36,758 nucleotides of DNA from a virus. The translations under genes were made by a program, and so were the position numbers. Numbering within the stretch: position 1 is the stretch's first letter; every line of letters begins with the position of its first letter. Shown here piece by piece: positions 4,163 through 19,142 of the stretch. The notes under the pieces are model-generated. The model was not told the DNA's origin. It worked only from the letters and a program-made list of their open reading frames with translations, and did no database searches. Where the stretch lies: the IMG/VR virus record IMGVR_UViG_3300022752_000191, positions 1 through 36,758 of that record; one strand, written 5' to 3'.

Positions 4163-4402
4163 ATGGGCTTGGCAGATAAGTTAGAAGAGGCAAACAAGAA
4201 TAAGAAACCATCAAACTGGTGTCCGTACCAATATATGTATGACAATTTAACGCCAGAAAATCAAAAGGCATTAGATGATGCGTGGGCAAAAGGTTTATCT
4301 GCAAATGTTGTTTTAAGTGCGCTTAGGTCGGAAGGCATTAAAAGTAGTAATGAAGCAATACGAGCACATAGAAATGGTGTTTGTAAATGCCCGAAAAAAT
4401 AA
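4163..4402 (+). CDS. Small putative DNA-binding protein
   Basis: 79 residues from the ATG at 4163, which has AGAAAGGTGG upstream; a longer start at 4127 lacks a ribosome site. The middle (LTPENQKALDDAWAKGL) and the following SANVVLSALRSEGIKSSNEAIRAHRNG look like two helices plus a helix-turn-helix, a pattern seen in small phage regulators. The C-terminus, CKCPKK, may bind metal together with the earlier Cys (NWCPYQY). It overlaps the next gene by 16 bases. The function is not established. Confidence 0.6.
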   Translation: MGLADKLEEANKNKKPSNWCPYQYMYDNLTPENQKALDDAWAKGLSANVVLSALRSEGIKSSNEAIRAHRNGVCKCPKK

Positions 4403-4638
4403 ACAAAATTCTTGAAGATAGACAACAAATACACGGTGATGCAGAAGAAAACTTTGCACGCGCTGGTCGTGGTTGGGGCGCATTATTAGGTATTGGTGAT
4501 ATTCCTGCGTGGCAAGTGGCATTAATGATGGATTTCTTCAAGTCTGTGCGGTGTGTATCAAATCCGTTACATGAAGATAACTGGTTGGACAAATTAGGTT
4601 ACACAAAACACGGTATGGAGATAACAAATGAGTCTTAA
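4387..4638 (+). CDS. DUF6378-like small phage protein
   Basis: 83 residues. The motif ILEDRQQIHGDAEENF at the start and the later VALMMDFFKSVRCVSNPLHEDNWLDKLGY match a common small phage protein family of unknown role (DUF6378-like). In this family the segments (R..hHG....) and (K..R......H.DNw.D..GY) are conserved. It overlaps both neighbours (16 and 11 bases), so it is translated within the same operon. No catalytic function is assigned. Confidence 0.7.
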   Translation: MPEKINKILEDRQQIHGDAEENFARAGRGWGALLGIGDIPAWQVALMMDFFKSVRCVSNPLHEDNWLDKLGYTKHGMEITNES

Positions 4639-5683
4639 AGATGCGTTTGATGATTTGCCAGAAGATATTGAGTCAAAAGATGTAATTGAACTACGCCGTG
4701 CGTTAATGCGTACTCAAAAACAATTATCTGATACAAAGAAAAAGAAAGATGATTTTACTGCGGCAGTTGTACAAGCGGCTCATGATGCAATGCTTTCCAT
4801 GGGCGGAGTACCACCTGTACCAACACCAACAAAAGATATTCGTAAAAAACGCGGTGAAGTTGCACTATTACATTCAACGGATTGGCAATTAGGTAAGCAA
4901 ACTCTTACATATAACACCAAAGAGTGTGAGCGCCTTGTTAAACAAAGTATTGAAAAGACAATTAAAATTGCAAATATACAACGCGCTGACCACCCAGTTA
5001 AAGAAATTGTGTTGATGCTTGGTGGAGATATTGTGGAAAACACCACCATATTCCCAGCGCAAGTATATGAAGTAGATAGCGACATAATGACTCAGTTTGT
5101 GGAAGCATCACGCATACTTATAGATATTGTTCGCATACTTCTTGCTAACTTTGAAAAGGTAACTGTGGTATGTGAACCCGGAAATCACGGGCGTATTGGT
5201 AAATTTGGTGAGTTACCAAAAGATATTAACTGGGACAAACTTACATATATGTTTGCAGGTCAAGCACTAAGAGTTGAAAAACGCCTTGACTGGCAAATGA
5301 GCAAAGAAGATATCCAGCGTGTAACTATTGGAAACTACAAAGCGTTGCTTATTCACGGTGATGAAATTAGATGGGGTACTGCATCAACCATTGTTCGTTT
5401 TGCAGACCGATGGAAGTCTGGCGCATATAAATTCTTTGATGAAGTGGATAACATTACAAAAGGATTTGACTTCCGCGATTTATACATTGGGCATTACCAT
5501 CAACATCAATCTTGGAATATGGCTAACGGTGAGGGAAGCGTGTTTATGTCTGGCGCGGTTGAAACTGGTAATCGCTATGCGCGAGATTTGCTTGCAAGCA
5601 ATGGTGAACCTTCACAACGCCTACATTTTGTTGACCCAGAAAAGGGCCGTGTTACTTCCGAATACAGATTATGGTTGGATTAA
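4628..5683 (+). CDS. Mre11/SbcD-like calcineurin-type phosphoesterase
   Basis: 351 residues. An N-terminal helical region (about 1-75, Lys-rich) precedes a metallophosphoesterase core. Visible metal-binding motifs are STDWQLG (D-x-H-like site where W replaces the usual His), MLGGDIVEN (GD), EPGNHGR (GNH), LLIHGDE (HGD) and YIGHYHQHQ (GHxH). This set fits the Mre11/SbcD-like nuclease fold, with the first motif diverged. The protein probably processes DNA ends or hairpins during replication or recombination. No SbcC/Rad50 partner is encoded here, so it may act alone or with a host protein. Its 3' end overlaps the convergent gene by 4 bases. Confidence 0.75.
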   Translation: MSLKDAFDDLPEDIESKDVIELRRALMRTQKQLSDTKKKKDDFTAAVVQAAHDAMLSMGGVPPVPTPTKDIRKKRGEVALLHSTDWQLGKQTLTYNTKECERLVKQSIEKTIKIANIQRADHPVKEIVLMLGGDIVENTTIFPAQVYEVDSDIMTQFVEASRILIDIVRILLANFEKVTVVCEPGNHGRIGKFGELPKDINWDKLTYMFAGQALRVEKRLDWQMSKEDIQRVTIGNYKALLIHGDEIRWGTASTIVRFADRWKSGAYKFFDEVDNITKGFDFRDLYIGHYHQHQSWNMANGEGSVFMSGAVETGNRYARDLLASNGEPSQRLHFVDPEKGRVTSEYRLWLD

Positions 5684-5904
5684 TCTTCATCTTCATAATC
5701 ATCACCGTTATCGGCAGTAATTAGCCGCATATTTGAAACATCAACGCCATTTTCTTTTGCGGCAGTCATTGCTTCCTTAAATACATTTAGCGCACGGTTA
5801 GTTAAATCATCAATCATGTCGGGATATTCAGTTTCTGTTCCTAATTCAACAGTCAAACCACCGCAACGGATTGCGATTTGTGAATAATGTGATTTATCAG
5901 CCAT
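5680..5904 (-). CDS. Small acidic protein, the only minus-strand gene
   Basis: 74 residues, read on the minus strand from the ATG complement at 5902-5904. The sequence has a beta-like N-terminus (SQIAIRCGGLTVELG), a helical middle (DDLTNRALNVFKEAMTAAKE) and a very acidic tail (DNGDDYEDED). It converges with the phosphoesterase gene, overlapping by 4 bases, and diverges from the large RNA promoter. No Shine-Dalgarno sequence is visible; a -10-like TACACT lies about 7 bases before the ATG, so a leaderless transcript is possible. The function is unknown. Confidence 0.65.
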   Translation of the reverse strand: MADKSHYSQIAIRCGGLTVELGTETEYPDMIDDLTNRALNVFKEAMTAAKENGVDVSNMRLITADNGDDYEDED

Positions 5905-6016
5905 GGCAGAAGTGTATGCCCACTCACGCTGGACTACGCAAGTGTTACAAATAATGTGTTGCGGATTAAAAAACTGCCTACTTTTTAATAAGCCTTGTAA
6001 GGCTATTTGCGGACAT

Positions 6017-6044
6017 TTGAATAGTAATTACATATATTTATACT
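6017..6044 (+). promoter_or_regulatory. Strong sigma-70-like promoter of the large RNA/early operon
   Basis: The -35 element TTGAAT (6017-6022), a 16-base spacer and the -10 element TATACT (6039-6044) give one of the best promoter matches in the window. The predicted start of transcription is near 6051. No reading frame follows for about 800 bases, so the first product would be the structured RNA described at 6051-6791. Confidence 0.7.
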
Positions 6045-6056
6045 AATTACATATAT
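6025..6056 (+). repeat. 13-bp direct repeat around the -10, possible operator
   Basis: TAATTACATATAT occurs exactly at 6025-6037 and 6044-6056, 19 bases apart (close to two helical turns), on either side of the -10 box. This arrangement suits a repressor or activator binding as two units on one face of the DNA. A short palindrome AGCCTTGTAAGGCT (5991-6004) lies just upstream, between the divergent promoters. Confidence 0.5.
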
Positions 6057-6791
6057 GAGTACCTCTATGGGGCTGTAACGGCGTTATATACGCCTTCTAA
6101 AACCCACTTCTGTATGGTCTGATAGACTTCTCTTAGTACGAACAACTAAATAGTGGTTTTAGAAATCGACAGAAACCGTTACCCATAGGGATATGGAAAA
6201 AACGAGATTAACGCCTAGGCACTCGAACACTTCGGCTATCGAAAGTAAATTACCCACACGCAGCAACATATGACAACTAAATATCTACAAAAACCTCGGT
6301 GAAGGCATCGGATTAACGCGTATGCACCGCACCGCTCTGGCGAGGTTTGAAGTTAGATATTTTTCAAATAGGAGATATTACGGAAAGCAAATTTAGTTAT
6401 TTAGTTTGCACCGTTCAGAGTATCCAGTAACAGATTGTAAGTCCGAACAAAACCAGCACAAACTGTTAGTCGCTGACATTCACGCTAACAGTAATTAGGT
6501 ACAGGTTCGGTATTCGGTAAGGTTCACAATTCACCGATATAACACATTACAAAAAGTTATGACACGCAAATAAGGGAACGCACGCAACGGATAAGTCCTT
6601 GACAAGTGACAAAGACAGGCACCCACAGTAGTTGCTAATCAGCGCACTCCAAATAAGGCGGAAGTCGGTATGGAGAATTTATCTCAGAGGTCGGTCTGAC
6701 GAACCGATAGTGGTACACATTCCACAAACACATAAATAACTAGGGACAAACAAATTCCGAAACGGCGTTGGCACTAAAAGTCAGCGCCGTC
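6051..6791 (+). ncRNA. Large (~740 nt) structured noncoding RNA
   Basis: The region has no convincing gene, a strong promoter at its start and many mutually compatible helices. Examples are 6063-6070 with 6183-6190; 6075-6081 with 6176-6182; 6095-6108 with 6152-6164 (13 bp, one bulge); hairpin 6133-6137/6145-6149; 6279-6287 with 6354-6362 plus 6291-6298 with 6341-6348; 6462-6469 with 6485-6492; 6443-6448 with 6505-6510; 6647-6651 with 6671-6675. A motif GATTAACGC-N4-GCAC is repeated in two hairpins. Size, complexity and phage setting recall giant ornate RNAs such as GOLLD (lake and Lactobacillales phages) or ROOL, but I cannot match the sequence to either from memory. The 3' end would be set by the hammerhead-like element at 6757-6830. 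Confidence 0.7.
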
Positions 6792-6830
6792 TAACCGCTT
6801 AGGCAACGGTTACTGATGATGGTACGCCTA
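6757..6830 (+). ncRNA. Hammerhead-like ribozyme (type II), weak stem II
   Basis: The elements are in type II order: GAAA (6759-6762); stem III of ten pairs (6763-6772 with 6780-6789, loop ACTAAAA) plus A6762-U6790; cleavage nucleotide C6791 in a GUC context; stem I TAACCG (6792-6797) with CGGTTA (6807-6812); catalytic CTGATGA (6813-6819). Stem II is poor: CC (6757-6758) can pair with GG (6821-6822) only if U6820 is extra. The stem I loop TAGGC (6800-6804) is complementary to GCCTA (6826-6830), giving a possible stabilising pseudoknot. Cleavage would follow C6791. The core is right, so I judge it a real hammerhead, but its activity is uncertain. Confidence 0.65.
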
Positions 6831-6856
6831 TCAAACTACAAACAAGGGATAAACAA

Positions 6857-7072
6857 ATGGCAATGAGCAAAATGGATTACGAAGTAATCGCAGCACTAAT
6901 AGTAAAAGCAAAAGAGTTCCACCCAGATGCAACAGAAGGACTTGAATCACTAACAATGATGCTAGTCGGAGCATTTGGCGCAAGTAATTCACGATTTCGC
7001 CCAGATTTCTTTCTAAAGGCGGCAGAACATTCATCAGTAAATCCATTTACAACATCTAACTGGCAAAACTAA
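6857..7072 (+). CDS. Small early protein of unknown function
   Basis: 71 residues, mostly helical (MDYEVIAALIVKAKEF; LESLTMMLVGAFGA), ending in a polar segment. A ribosome site of the recurrent type AAGGGATAAACAAATG precedes the start. It is the first gene downstream of the large RNA and the hammerhead-like element, so it would be read from an RNA beginning at 6792 if that cleavage occurs. No family is recognised. Confidence 0.65.
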   Translation: MAMSKMDYEVIAALIVKAKEFHPDATEGLESLTMMLVGAFGASNSRFRPDFFLKAAEHSSVNPFTTSNWQN

Positions 7073-7095: not shown

Positions 7096-7557
7096 ATGGC
7101 ACTATCTTGGGATATAACAAAATGCGCAGACATTCAACTATTACAGTCTGGCACGGAATGGAATAAAACAGAGGGCATTATCTTCTCAACTATGAGCGTG
7201 GATATGCACCAGATTACAGAAGAAAACGCAATTGAGTTTTACGCAAGATTAAAATTGCTTTCTACTGTTTACAACGGTTTCTTTTACGATAAAGAAACAA
7301 ATCAGTATGTTGAACCAACATTTGAAGATGTACAGATACGCATTGGACTAATAACCAACGCTTATTCCAAAAACACCTTCAAGCAATGGTTTAAGCGTAT
7401 CGCTATGGCACATCACAAAGATATTACCGAGAATAAAATGTTAGCGGCTTATTACTCCGCAAAGGCAGAGATTGAACAACTTATGGAAGAAAAGGCAACT
7501 TATACCGAACGCAATGAAAGTTTTGCGTTTGACTTACAACCAAGAAGTGGGGCGTAA
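7096..7557 (+). CDS. Conserved-looking early protein of unknown function
   Basis: 153 residues with a good ribosome site (AAAAGGGG). It is a mixed helical protein with no Cys cluster, membrane segment or known catalytic motif. Notable segments are YARLKLLSTVYNGFFYD (about 48-64), NTFKQWFKRIAMAHHKDI (about 94-111) and a C-terminal coiled-coil-like stretch (YSAKAEIEQLMEEKATY). Its stop overlaps the next start (TAATG). It lies in the three-gene segment bounded by the two hammerheads. Confidence 0.65.
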   Translation: MALSWDITKCADIQLLQSGTEWNKTEGIIFSTMSVDMHQITEENAIEFYARLKLLSTVYNGFFYDKETNQYVEPTFEDVQIRIGLITNAYSKNTFKQWFKRIAMAHHKDITENKMLAAYYSAKAEIEQLMEEKATYTERNESFAFDLQPRSGA

Positions 7558-7772
7558 TGGGAAATATAATTCAATTACCGACAAAATGCAGTTGCGTATC
7601 AACCCCAGTAACAGATATTGAAGCCGATTTAGCATTTATTGTTATTGCGCCAGAAATATTTGCTAGAGCAATTGCTTCAAATAACGGTGAAATGGCAATG
7701 AAAATAGCAGACCAGTTAATTGAGAGTAGCAATTCTCTTGGTTTGTACGCAATTCATAAATCACATTCATAA
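7557..7772 (+). CDS. Small early protein upstream of the hammerhead
   Basis: 71 residues, with an N-terminal basic/Cys segment (PTKCSCVS) followed by helical repeats (EADLAFIVIAPEIFARAIASN, EMAMKIADQLIE). It is translationally coupled to the gene before it (TAATG). The last base of its stop codon is the first base of the type II hammerhead stem II, so its mRNA would end about 23 bases after the stop when the ribozyme cuts. No function is recognised. Confidence 0.6.
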   Translation: MGNIIQLPTKCSCVSTPVTDIEADLAFIVIAPEIFARAIASNNGEMAMKIADQLIESSNSLGLYAIHKSHS

Positions 7773-7824
7773 GGCGAAACCACCTTCGGGTGGTCTAGTG
7801 CTAAATGGCACTACTGATGAGCCT
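7772..7824 (+). ncRNA. Type II hammerhead ribozyme
   Basis: All parts of a type II hammerhead are present in order. Stem II 5' strand AGGC (7772-7775); core GAAA (7776-7779); stem III CCACC-UUCG-GGUGG (7780-7793); U7794 and cleavage nucleotide C7795; stem I UAGUGC (7796-7801) with GCACUA (7808-7813) around a 6-nt loop; catalytic CUGAUGA (7814-7820); stem II 3' strand GCCU (7821-7824). Stems I, II and III are perfectly paired and the invariant core bases are intact. Cleavage after 7795 would separate the preceding gene from the mRNA that starts the 7854 gene, leaving a 5'-OH leader. Type II hammerheads are known in bacteria and phages. Confidence 0.92.
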
Positions 7825-7830
7825 CATCAG
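7814..7830 (+). promoter_or_regulatory. Anti-ribozyme palindrome over the catalytic strand
   Basis: The catalytic CUGAUGA (7814-7820) is followed, after GCC, by its exact complement UCAUCAG (7824-7830). Pairing them would form a 7-bp hairpin and disrupt the hammerhead core and stem II, so this downstream strand could switch the ribozyme off once transcribed, or impose a kinetic window for cleavage. Confidence 0.6.
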
Positions 7831-7853: not shown

Positions 7854-8366
7854 ATGACCGAAGAAACAACACAAGTAACAACAGAAGAAACAACAGACCC
7901 AACAAAACTAACACTTACAAATCAACAAATTGCAGAAAGTGTCGTAAAAGATTTACCTGCAAATGAAATCGTTAATGAAGTCAAACGCTTACTTGACGAA
8001 GTTGATTACCGCAAGAAAGAAGCGGCACTTGCAAAAGAAAGAGCAACACAAGGCACTTCAAGATACTTAAATCTTTTTACATCACTTGAAGAATTTATCA
8101 AGGAACATGTAAAAGATGAACAAATCAGTATTGACGACCTCAAAGAATTTGCCGAGGAAGTTAATATCTCACTTACAAAATCCATCAGAGTTACATTCAA
8201 TGTTAAGTGCGAATATGAGTTTGATGTTCCACTTGATTACACAGAAGATGATATTTCAGATGGTGATTTCACTATCCGTATTTCATCAAATATTAATGAT
8301 GAACAAGTTGAAGAAACATCAGAGTCATATGAAGTGGAAGATTTTGAGGTGCAAGATAATGACTAA
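7854..8366 (+). CDS. Acidic early protein of unknown function
   Basis: 170 residues, strongly acidic. It begins with a Thr/Glu-rich low-complexity segment (MTEETTQVTTEETTDPT), then a coiled-coil-like middle (VNEVKRLLDEVDYRKKEAALAKERA), and ends with acidic beta segments (YEFDVPLDYTEDDISDGDF). It is preceded by AAAAGGGATAAACAAATG, the leader immediately after the hammerhead. The acidity could mean DNA mimicry or interaction with a basic protein, but that is only a guess. It overlaps the next gene by 8 bases. Confidence 0.65.
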   Translation: MTEETTQVTTEETTDPTKLTLTNQQIAESVVKDLPANEIVNEVKRLLDEVDYRKKEAALAKERATQGTSRYLNLFTSLEEFIKEHVKDEQISIDDLKEFAEEVNISLTKSIRVTFNVKCEYEFDVPLDYTEDDISDGDFTIRISSNINDEQVEETSESYEVEDFEVQDND

Positions 8367-8676
8367 TACAAGAACAATTACAGTTACCGTTAAAACAACA
8401 GAAACAGTAACAAATGAAGTAGATACATGGCTAACAATTAATCCAACCAGTTTTTACCATGATGCGTGCGTATCCAAAGGGTATTGCACCGCAGAACAAT
8501 ATCTGGTTATCAATTGGTCAAAATGGATTAAGTGGTATTCAGACTCAATGGCGCACGGTACAAGTTTTATTACCGTACCTTTTCCAGCATTCGTCGGTGA
8601 CACTTACGCAATTGCGTTAGCCGTTGCTGCCGAATTAAACAAACCAGTTACAACAACCGAAGGGATAAACGCATAA
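8359..8676 (+). CDS. Early protein of unknown function
   Basis: 105 residues from the ATG at 8359; a longer in-frame start lies inside the previous gene and was not used. The N-terminus is a Thr-rich beta segment (TRTITVTVKTTETVT), followed by an aromatic region (WSKWIKWYSDSM) and a hydrophobic FPAFVGDTYAIALAVAAEL helix. It overlaps the preceding stop and touches the DUF932 start (TAATG), so all three are one translational unit. Confidence 0.6.
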   Translation: MTNTRTITVTVKTTETVTNEVDTWLTINPTSFYHDACVSKGYCTAEQYLVINWSKWIKWYSDSMAHGTSFITVPFPAFVGDTYAIALAVAAELNKPVTTTEGINA

Positions 8677-9686
8677 TGGCACACAGACTAGAGGAATTTG
8701 CAGACGGAACTTCCGCCTTCTTTTCCGCACGAGAGGTTGCTTGGCACAAACTAGGCACCGTTACAGAAGGCGCACTCACCGCAGAAGATGCGCTAAAAAC
8801 TGCACAACTTGATTGGGAAGTCATCAAATCTGATGACCCTGTATCAACAATGGTTCCTATGTACGGTAATTCTGCTATGGAACAAGGTTCAATGGAAGAA
8901 ATCACATATGCAGATAAGTTTATGACTTATCGCTATCACCCAAAGACAAAAAAGGCGCAAGCACTTGGCGTTGTGGGTAATCGCTATACACCAGTTCAGA
9001 ACCTGCAAGCATTTTCATTCCTAAATGCAGTTGCCGATGAAAGTGGCGCGGTATTTGAGACTGCTGGCAGTATTGACGGTGGTAAAAAAGTCTTTATGAC
9101 TATGAAGATGCCAGAAGGATTGCAAATCGGTGGCGTAGATGCTATTGATTTATATTTGATGGCTTGGAACACACATGATGGCACTTCATCATTTAATGTT
9201 CTAGTTACTCCTATCCGCGTGGTTTGTCAGAACACGCTAACTGCGGCAATCGGAAGTGCTAAATCCACTTTTACATTACGACATACGCCAAATGTGGATA
9301 ATAAAATCCAAGCGGCACGCGAAACACTTAAATTGACATGGAAATACACAGAGTCATTTGAACAATTAGCAAATAATCTTCTCGGTCAGAAAATGACTGA
9401 TAAGGAATTTTATTCATTAGTTGAAAATGTATTTCCAATTGATGACCCAGAAAGCCCACGCGCAGTAACTATGGCGGAAACTGCACGCGGAACACTTAAT
9501 GGTTTGTGGAAAGCACCAACACAAGCCAATATTTTCGGCACAAAATGGGCGGCATATAACGCCTTTACCGAATATGCGGATTGGGCTAAGCCAGTTCGTG
9601 ACAAAAATCCAGATACTGCTAGGGCTATCAGAATAGTTACTGGCGCAGGAGATAACTTCAAGAATAAAATCTTGAACCTGCTATAA
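8676..9686 (+). CDS. DUF932 phage/plasmid-like protein
   Basis: 336 residues matching the DUF932 (TIGR03299-like) family common in phages and plasmids. The hallmark segments are REVAWHKLGT near the N-terminus (about 20-29), YHPKTKKAQALGVVGNRYTPVQN (about 91-113), FNVLVTPIRVVCQNTL (about 173-188) and the late AYNAFTEYADW motif. Its molecular function is unknown; family members are usually in early or replication regions, as here. It is preceded by the recurrent AAGGGATAAAC leader and followed by a perfect 15-bp hairpin. Length is normal for the family. Confidence 0.88.
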   Translation: MAHRLEEFADGTSAFFSAREVAWHKLGTVTEGALTAEDALKTAQLDWEVIKSDDPVSTMVPMYGNSAMEQGSMEEITYADKFMTYRYHPKTKKAQALGVVGNRYTPVQNLQAFSFLNAVADESGAVFETAGSIDGGKKVFMTMKMPEGLQIGGVDAIDLYLMAWNTHDGTSSFNVLVTPIRVVCQNTLTAAIGSAKSTFTLRHTPNVDNKIQAARETLKLTWKYTESFEQLANNLLGQKMTDKEFYSLVENVFPIDDPESPRAVTMAETARGTLNGLWKAPTQANIFGTKWAAYNAFTEYADWAKPVRDKNPDTARAIRIVTGAGDNFKNKILNLL

Positions 9687-18011: not shown

Positions 18012-19142
18012 ATGAGTGTAATTAAATTAACCACAGAAATTAACAGAACACCTAGAGTGATGCAGTTAGAAGGTATCTTTGATTTACAGGCGGAAAAAAT
18101 ATCTATAACGGAAATTCCTAACAATATTCCAGACTTAGGAACACGCGATTGGAATATAGGTTTAATTGTTGGTCCTAGTGGCGCAGGTAAAACAACGGTC
18201 GCCAAAGATTTATTTAATCAAGAATTGTTAAACACGGAAACTATGCAATGGGGGCGCAATAACGCCGTTATTGATGATTTTCCAAAAGAGTTACCAATTA
18301 AGGATATTACCGAATTGTTATCAAGTGTTGGCTTTTCATCACCACCTGCATGGTTACGCCCATATGAAAATCTTTCAAACGGTGAAAAGTTCCGTGTAAG
18401 TATGGCACGCGTACTTGCAGAGAGTAAAGAGATTGCAGTTGTAGATGAATTTACATCTGTTATTGACCGTACAGTTGCGCAAATAGGTTCTGCGGCTATT
18501 GCTAAAACTGTTAGAGCGCGTAATCAAAAGTTTGTAGCAGTTGCTTGCCACTACGATATTGAAGAGTGGTTACAACCTGATTGGATTTACCAGCCACATC
18601 TTGGCACTTTCACTTGGGGGTCGGTTCAACCCCGCCCACAAGTCAATGTTGAAGTCATTTGGGCAAAGTATGAAGCGTGGAACATATTCAGCAAACATCA
18701 CTATCTAAGTAACAGTTTGAATAAATCAGCACAAATTTATATGGGATTAATTGATAATCAACCAGCAGTAATGATTGCAATGTTGCCACTTGTTAACGCT
18801 AATATTAAAAATGCTAGGCGTGTAAGTCGTGTTGTTACATTACCAGATTATCAAGGAATCGGTATTGGTAATAAGTTTATGAATATTATTGCCGCAGGGT
18901 TAAAGGCGCAAGGACTAGAAACTTATATAACTTCATCTCACCCTGCACTTATGCGTTCATTAAATAAATCTCCTAACTGGGAAATGATTAGAGAACCATC
19001 AAGAGTGTCACAAAGAGGCAAAACATCTTCTCTAACAGGTCGATTAGGTTTATCGCGTAGCCGTATAACAACTGGTTTCAGATACGCAGGGGCGCCAAAT
19101 GAAGAGATTGCTAAAGTGTTATGTCCGAGACCGCAAAACTAA
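18012..19142 (+). CDS. ABC-type ATPase fused to a GNAT acetyltransferase domain
   Basis: 376 residues with two domains. The N-terminal ABC ATPase has Walker A GPSGAGKTT (about 53-61), signature NLSNGEKFRVSMAR (about 120-133), Walker B IAVVDEFTS (about 141-149) and a His switch ACHYDI. The C-terminal half has KYEAWNIFSKHHYLSNSL, then a GNAT core (RRVSRVVTLPDYQGIGIGNKFM, with QGIGIG for acetyl-CoA binding) and SSHPALMRSLNKSPNW. It is not a transporter (no membrane domain). GNAT-fold Mom proteins modify phage DNA bases, and ABC-GNAT fusions near ParB-like genes suggest nucleic-acid modification. This is inference, not proof. Confidence 0.72.
   Translation: MSVIKLTTEINRTPRVMQLEGIFDLQAEKISITEIPNNIPDLGTRDWNIGLIVGPSGAGKTTVAKDLFNQELLNTETMQWGRNNAVIDDFPKELPIKDITELLSSVGFSSPPAWLRPYENLSNGEKFRVSMARVLAESKEIAVVDEFTSVIDRTVAQIGSAAIAKTVRARNQKFVAVACHYDIEEWLQPDWIYQPHLGTFTWGSVQPRPQVNVEVIWAKYEAWNIFSKHHYLSNSLNKSAQIYMGLIDNQPAVMIAMLPLVNANIKNARRVSRVVTLPDYQGIGIGNKFMNIIAAGLKAQGLETYITSSHPALMRSLNKSPNWEMIREPSRVSQRGKTSSLTGRLGLSRSRITTGFRYAGAPNEEIAKVLCPRPQN

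Follow-up and report, generated by a model that had tools for sequence, protein, structure and literature searches.

The question raised by this locus is what occupies a long stretch without genes at the head of a rightward phage operon. The window analyzed is the full virus record IMGVR_UViG_3300022752_000191 (36,758 bases), to which all coordinates refer. In the ORF listing of the window, the 952 bases from 5905 to 6856 contain no ORF of at least 60 aa, which confirms the gene-free region described in the initial annotation. This gap is bordered by a minus-strand ORF at 5680-5904, a small gene here called m74, and by a plus-strand ORF from 6857 which starts the rightward operon. The gap had been proposed to encode an ornate structured RNA of about 740 nt under its own strong promoter. 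The single-sequence fold is weakly beyond chance (MFE -199.3 vs. -183.4 ± 7.8 in 20 shuffles, z = -2.0), and because the fold of this one sequence only slightly beats the shuffles, the structural claim needed comparison with relatives. As presented below, this comparison makes it fairly probable that the RNA encoded in the gap belongs to a new class of large structured phage RNAs and matures its own 3’ end by hammerhead self-cleavage. For the strong promoter, our scan found two 9/12 matches within 6010-6044, where 4.2 are expected by chance for the stretch, and since the matches do not exceed this expectation, the promoter of the RNA stays unproven. A palindrome, AGCCTTGTAAGGCT, is located at 5991-6004, in the interval which separates the RNA from the divergently oriented m74 gene. 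The block containing it is conserved in the closest relatives, and the palindrome is possibly an operator.

Homologues were collected by flanking-protein searches and a pattern scan. With the downstream protein at 7096-7557 and the DUF932 protein at 8676-9686 as queries, phages carrying the RNA were retrieved. As a noncoding element in conserved synteny, the RNA occurs in about 42 different sequences of uncultured phages (38 distinct members plus L083, L086, L090 and L091), and wherever both neighbours are visible it always lies between m74 and the first rightward gene. The closest RNA-bearing relatives have 83-93% DNA identity, and the most distant are alike in sequence at the 3’ end only. 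The exonuclease gene upstream of the RNA, when used as query, led mostly to phages without the element. These phages were rejected as a source of homologues, as their equivalent place has neither the RNA nor a hammerhead and the gene is a mosaic import. The protein of this exonuclease gene (4628-5683) is about 77-92% identical to those of RNA-lacking phages and only about 53% identical to those of RNA-bearing relatives which share its neighbours. At the DNA level, the window and two divergent homologues had no relevant match among 50,697 phage records. In the genome collection, at least 117 stretches fit a loose hammerhead-loop pattern, and the hammerhead fold was found in none of those examined. 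As for the host, phages of Actinobacteria are indicated by both the DUF932 protein and the exonuclease, while the terminase is mixed. Upstream of the terminase gene, the ORF at 18012-19142 has both an ABC-type ATPase part and one resembling acetyltransferases (phrog_11143, E 1e-105).

The predicted mature form of the RNA is 6051-6791 on the plus strand, as are all RNA features described below. Its 5’ end is approximate, with the first conserved helix from 6059, and its 3’ end is the predicted cleavage site. The consensus structure from 17 sequences contains about 35 helices between 6059 and 6790. In an independent tool alignment of the 3’ half of the RNA with 14 relatives (A5), 39 of 85 pairs are double-changed. 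Shuffled versions gave 20.0 ± 2.6, with none of 500 as high, and slid versions gave 7-12. Six helices exceeded the best of 30 column-permuted alignments when 13 non-redundant sequences were used. All consensus helices together have 200 G-U cells vs. 83 A-C cells, and the RNA is assigned to the plus strand because of these G-U pairs. Helix covariation is thus present among the homologues, and together with synteny it supports the proposal of an ornate structured RNA of about 740 nt.

In the 5’ domain, all seven pairs of helix 6166-6172/6236-6242 are double-changed (82% paired). The initial annotation had singled out two helices, one of which, 6279-6298/6341-6362, forms a long hairpin arm (6279-6362) and is supported. 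Its inner part is 91% paired with double changes in 4 of 6 pairs, and its outer part is fully re-paired in divergent relatives, e.g., AAUAGCAAAA/UUUUGCUAUU in L067. The other, 6095-6108/6152-6164, is poorly supported and probably wrong, as pairing reaches 84% in its mostly invariant core and 13% in its extension, and it competes with helix 6155-6161/6246-6254, which is 89-90% paired and has double changes. The central branched domain (6432-6565) is represented by covariance model R1, and a search with this model recovered L091, L118, L071, L086 and L073 (E 5e-14 to 8e-6), while none of 14 relatives lacking the RNA and none of 6 bacterial control loci gave a match. The 3’ domain (6561-6725) has six helices found in the consensus and the covariation test, namely 6561-6567/6658-6666, 6575-6581/6642-6650, 6584-6588/6631-6635, 6597-6599/6617-6619, 6690-6695/6703-6708 and 6710-6713/6722-6725. 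In L081, L085, L087, L108, L126, L157 and L199, the upstream part gave no match to R1. The hammerhead is common to all seven, as is synteny where visible, and the most distant members are joined to the family by these two features only.

Insertions in peripheral loops of the RNA occur in single members or small clades (L189 within 4250-4690; L070 and L089 in the 5’ domain). Two motifs are repeated within the RNA. The first, ACAACUAAAUA, is found at 6142-6152 and 6273-6283; most relatives retain it, and it is similar to the ACUAAAA heptaloop of the hammerhead. The second, GAUUAACGCnnnnGCAC, is found at 6206-6222 and 6311-6327. These are perhaps recurring tertiary modules. Palindromic kissing loops were considered as evidence of oligomers and rejected, as the loops do not stay palindromic among relatives.

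A long-range pseudoknot between a hairpin loop, UAGUUAUUUA (6394-6403), and UAAAUAACUA (6733-6742), directly upstream of the hammerhead, joins the middle of the RNA to its 3’ end. Its arms are re-paired as GACAAUUAC/GUAAUUGUC in L069, L171 and L175, as UAGAUAUU/AAUAUCUA in L145, and as UUAGAUAUUUU/AAAAUAUCUAG in L091. Alignment A5, on which the 85-pair test was made, does not score this pairing, as three L069-type sequences are shifted by one column; support for the pseudoknot therefore comes from other comparisons of members. A helix suggested by RNAalifold (6555-6560/6736-6741) was rejected, the covarying pseudoknot being preferred. An 11-bp RNAalifold pairing (6421-6431/6809-6821), which would block the hammerhead, was rejected as it is invariant and is broken in the L063/L069 clade.

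The structured RNA had been recognized from the window, while the hammerhead at its 3’ end, which gives it a defined end and a likely production route, was overlooked. This type-II hammerhead ribozyme (6755-6830) has an invariant core, covarying stems and matches to Rfam RF02276 in homologues. It begins with the 5’ strand of stem II (UUCC, 6755-6758) and GAAA (6759-6762), followed by stem III (6762-6772/6780-6790), which is closed by the heptaloop ACUAAAA (6773-6779). Cleavage is predicted after C6791, which is also where the initial annotation had ended its RNA. Stem I (6792-6797/6807-6812), CUGAUGA (6813-6819), an inserted U6820 and the 3’ strand of stem II (6821-6822) follow, and loop I forms a pseudoknot with the tail (6800-6804/6826-6830).

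The hammerhead core (CGAAA, the NUH triplet and CUGANGA) is invariant in 40 aligned members. L086 (AUA) and L091 (AUC), whose retrieval by a profile did not depend on the core pattern, retain the NUH triplet, and in both the C-G pair adjoining the core is changed to U-A. In stems I and III, 616 of 616 cells are paired and 14 of 17 pairs have double changes, giving a covariation score of 0.654 vs. 0.200 when shuffled and at most 0.102 in slid controls. The stems contain 45 G-U cells and no unpaired cells, which again indicates the plus strand. The loop I/tail pseudoknot is kept with altered letters (UAGGC/GCCUA, UUGGC/GCCAA, GUGGC/GCCAU and GCC/GGC variants) and is absent or unclear in L108, L126 and L157. 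The stem III loop ACUAAAA is nearly constant, and because it hardly varies while its stem changes freely, the comparison suggests that it makes a tertiary contact. At the homologous place, Rfam identified Hammerhead_II at the exact end of the element in L075 (38.9 bits, cut-off 37), and below this cut-off in L076 (35.7 bits) and L118 (34.7 bits), with E of about 0.001-0.002. By all sequence features tested except a perfect stem II in its clade, the 3’ end of the window element is a type-II hammerhead. Against circularity, the ascertainment of members was checked by a search made independent of the hammerhead pattern. When a core motif of the RNA, located some 200 nt before the ribozyme on its upstream side, was the sole query, 25 contigs were returned, all in hammerhead-bearing loci; one of these contigs ends inside the hammerhead.

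We propose that the RNA is transcribed as the first part of a longer transcript, at the head of the rightward operon and including the downstream genes. Once folded, the hammerhead at its 3’ end would cut the chain after C6791. The upstream product would be a free structured RNA of about 740 nt with its new 3’ end capped by stem III. The freed UUCC (6755-6758), part of stem II before cleavage, could then re-pair with the invariant GGGA at 6743-6746 (100% paired, no variation), which would make cleavage hard to reverse. As neither part varies, no covariation test of this pairing is possible, and we infer the refold, as we do cleavage in the cell and the start of transcription. The downstream product would be an mRNA with a 5’-OH, whose predicted leader (6792-6856) carries the stem I hairpin, the loop I/tail pseudoknot and a few tens of nt before the first ribosome-binding site and start codon. 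A Shine-Dalgarno-like AAGGGA at 6844-6849 precedes the ATG at 6857.

The hammerhead at the end of the RNA is one of two in the window. The second, at 7772-7830, is a canonical type-II hammerhead (AAGG-CGAAAC-CACCUUCGGGUG-GUC-UAGUGC..GCACUA-CUGAUGA-GCC; Rfam 29.0 bits, E 0.0018, below the cut-off of 37), and it occupies the short gap between an ORF ending at 7772 and an ORF starting at 7854. L092 has five hammerheads, and the early operon seems to be punctuated by ribozymes. Two to five type-II hammerheads are found within a few kb of the same operon in L092 (2178-5973), L085 (2178-3847), L083 (4593-5970) and L091 (2877-3894).

The first downstream genes belong to about 15-20 unrelated families, and the ribozyme and its spacing are retained. 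Since the families change while the ribozyme and spacing stay, the ribozyme goes with the RNA and not with one gene. Given how large and conserved it is, and that the genes following it are replaced, we favour a released RNA that would be a stable trans-acting or scaffold product, like GOLLD and ROOL in kind, and not waste from an mRNA. GOLLD forms a 14-mer nanocage. We regard it as an even bet that the RNA described here is a self-releasing giant RNA which acts freely while the phage infects, perhaps as a particle made of RNA only, like GOLLD and ROOL.

The element could instead be a 5’ leader which regulates the downstream operon in cis, as an attenuator, an antiterminator or a riboswitch-like element. 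The hammerhead would then merely tailor the 5’ end of the mRNA, and the upstream piece would have no life of its own. In favour of such a leader, the element is found directly before the operon, and its hammerhead keeps a nearly fixed distance to the first start codon. In most relatives, 28-42 nt separate the hammerhead core from this codon, which has an AAGGG-like ribosome-binding site; in a few, a simple ORF rule calls it 12-15 nt past the core, which is probably a wrong start. The second hammerhead between later genes also fits, as the operon is punctuated by ribozymes anyway. However, cleavage would part the leader from the message under its control, the element is far bigger than usual regulators, and its conserved parts outlast the replacement of the downstream genes. 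We therefore consider a cis-acting leader unlikely, though it deserves some weight.

The proposed self-release also depends on an active ribozyme. The window copy might be inactive and survive as a structural hairpin, with the 3’ end made by a nuclease or a terminator. Stem II directly follows CUGANGA in about half of the members, while the window’s clade has a 1-nt insertion and 2-4 pairs. The extra U of this clade, between CUGAUGA and stem II, is lacking in other members, such as L056 and L070, and the window keeps just two stem II pairs. Together these features could slow cleavage of the window’s hammerhead, and the Rfam search did not report the window’s own copy at 6755-6830 even at an E of 10. 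Yet the core residues are invariant even within this clade while the stems covary, and a hammerhead of L091 (3316-3360) combines the same inserted U with a perfect 4-bp stem II. Moreover, a cleavage rate of more than 1.2 per minute is reported (PMC3088659) for a type-II hammerhead which has the pseudoknot and only one pair in stem II. Loss of activity in the window is thus rather improbable in our judgement, and self-cleavage remains our preferred reading.

The initial annotation also considered a diverged member of GOLLD or ROOL. Equal scale, a phage setting, the absence of a protein, an ornate pseudoknotted fold and a metagenomic origin would all fit these or another known large RNA class. 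Yet the Rfam search of the window and 18 homologue records returned hammerheads only, with no GOLLD, ROOL, OLE, HEARO or group I/II intron; matches to PreQ1 and DUF805b in the window were rejected as chance (E of about 3). GOLLD and ROOL are often found near tRNA islands, and hammerheads are unmentioned in the report describing this (PMC12286853), while a tRNA search of the window found none. Membership of a known class is thus very improbable. In our literature search, which was thin for subscription papers and preprints, no account of a large phage RNA terminating in a hammerhead was found. These comparisons support a new class of large structured phage RNA with no Rfam family apart from the hammerhead. 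A DNA element folding as single-stranded DNA, such as a replication origin or packaging site, would suit a long intergenic stretch at a strand switch of a phage genome but is scarcely credible given the complete hammerhead core, the plus-strand G-U pairs and the Rfam-recognized ribozymes at the 3’ end.

To our knowledge, only a few classes of giant structured RNA have been described in phages, and their roles are unsolved. Another class, with no sequence relation to those in Rfam, would offer a second line of attack on these roles. The built-in hammerhead would provide an exact 3’ end and a simple switch for testing how important its release is to the phage. It may also suggest what hammerheads of bacteria and phages, whose purpose has been unclear so far, naturally do, namely free a large noncoding RNA from the message that follows.

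Compared with known systems, the RNA resembles GOLLD (about 800 nt) in scale and in being phage-borne and highly structured, with a conserved 3’ part and a more variable 5’ part, and it resembles ROOL in being a large pseudoknotted phage RNA without coding capacity. It differs from both in having no Rfam match (for GOLLD, in sequence or structure) and no tRNA neighbour, and in ending in a ribozyme. Type-II hammerheads (RF02276) are found in phages and can be clustered in operons; they typically have a loop I/tail pseudoknot (Perreault et al., 2011, PMC3088659). The ribozyme of the window shares their permuted order, the GAAA/NUH/CUGANGA core, a short stem II and the pseudoknot between loop I and the 3’ tail. 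It differs in its conserved heptaloop ACUAAAA on stem III and in forming the 3’ end of a structured RNA of about 740 nt. Clustered hammerheads cut one polycistronic RNA between genes in the A. tumefaciens ardA region and others (PMC3088659). The phage operon is similar in that several hammerheads lie along one predicted transcript between genes, whereas one of the pieces which they would separate here is a conserved large noncoding RNA and not an mRNA.
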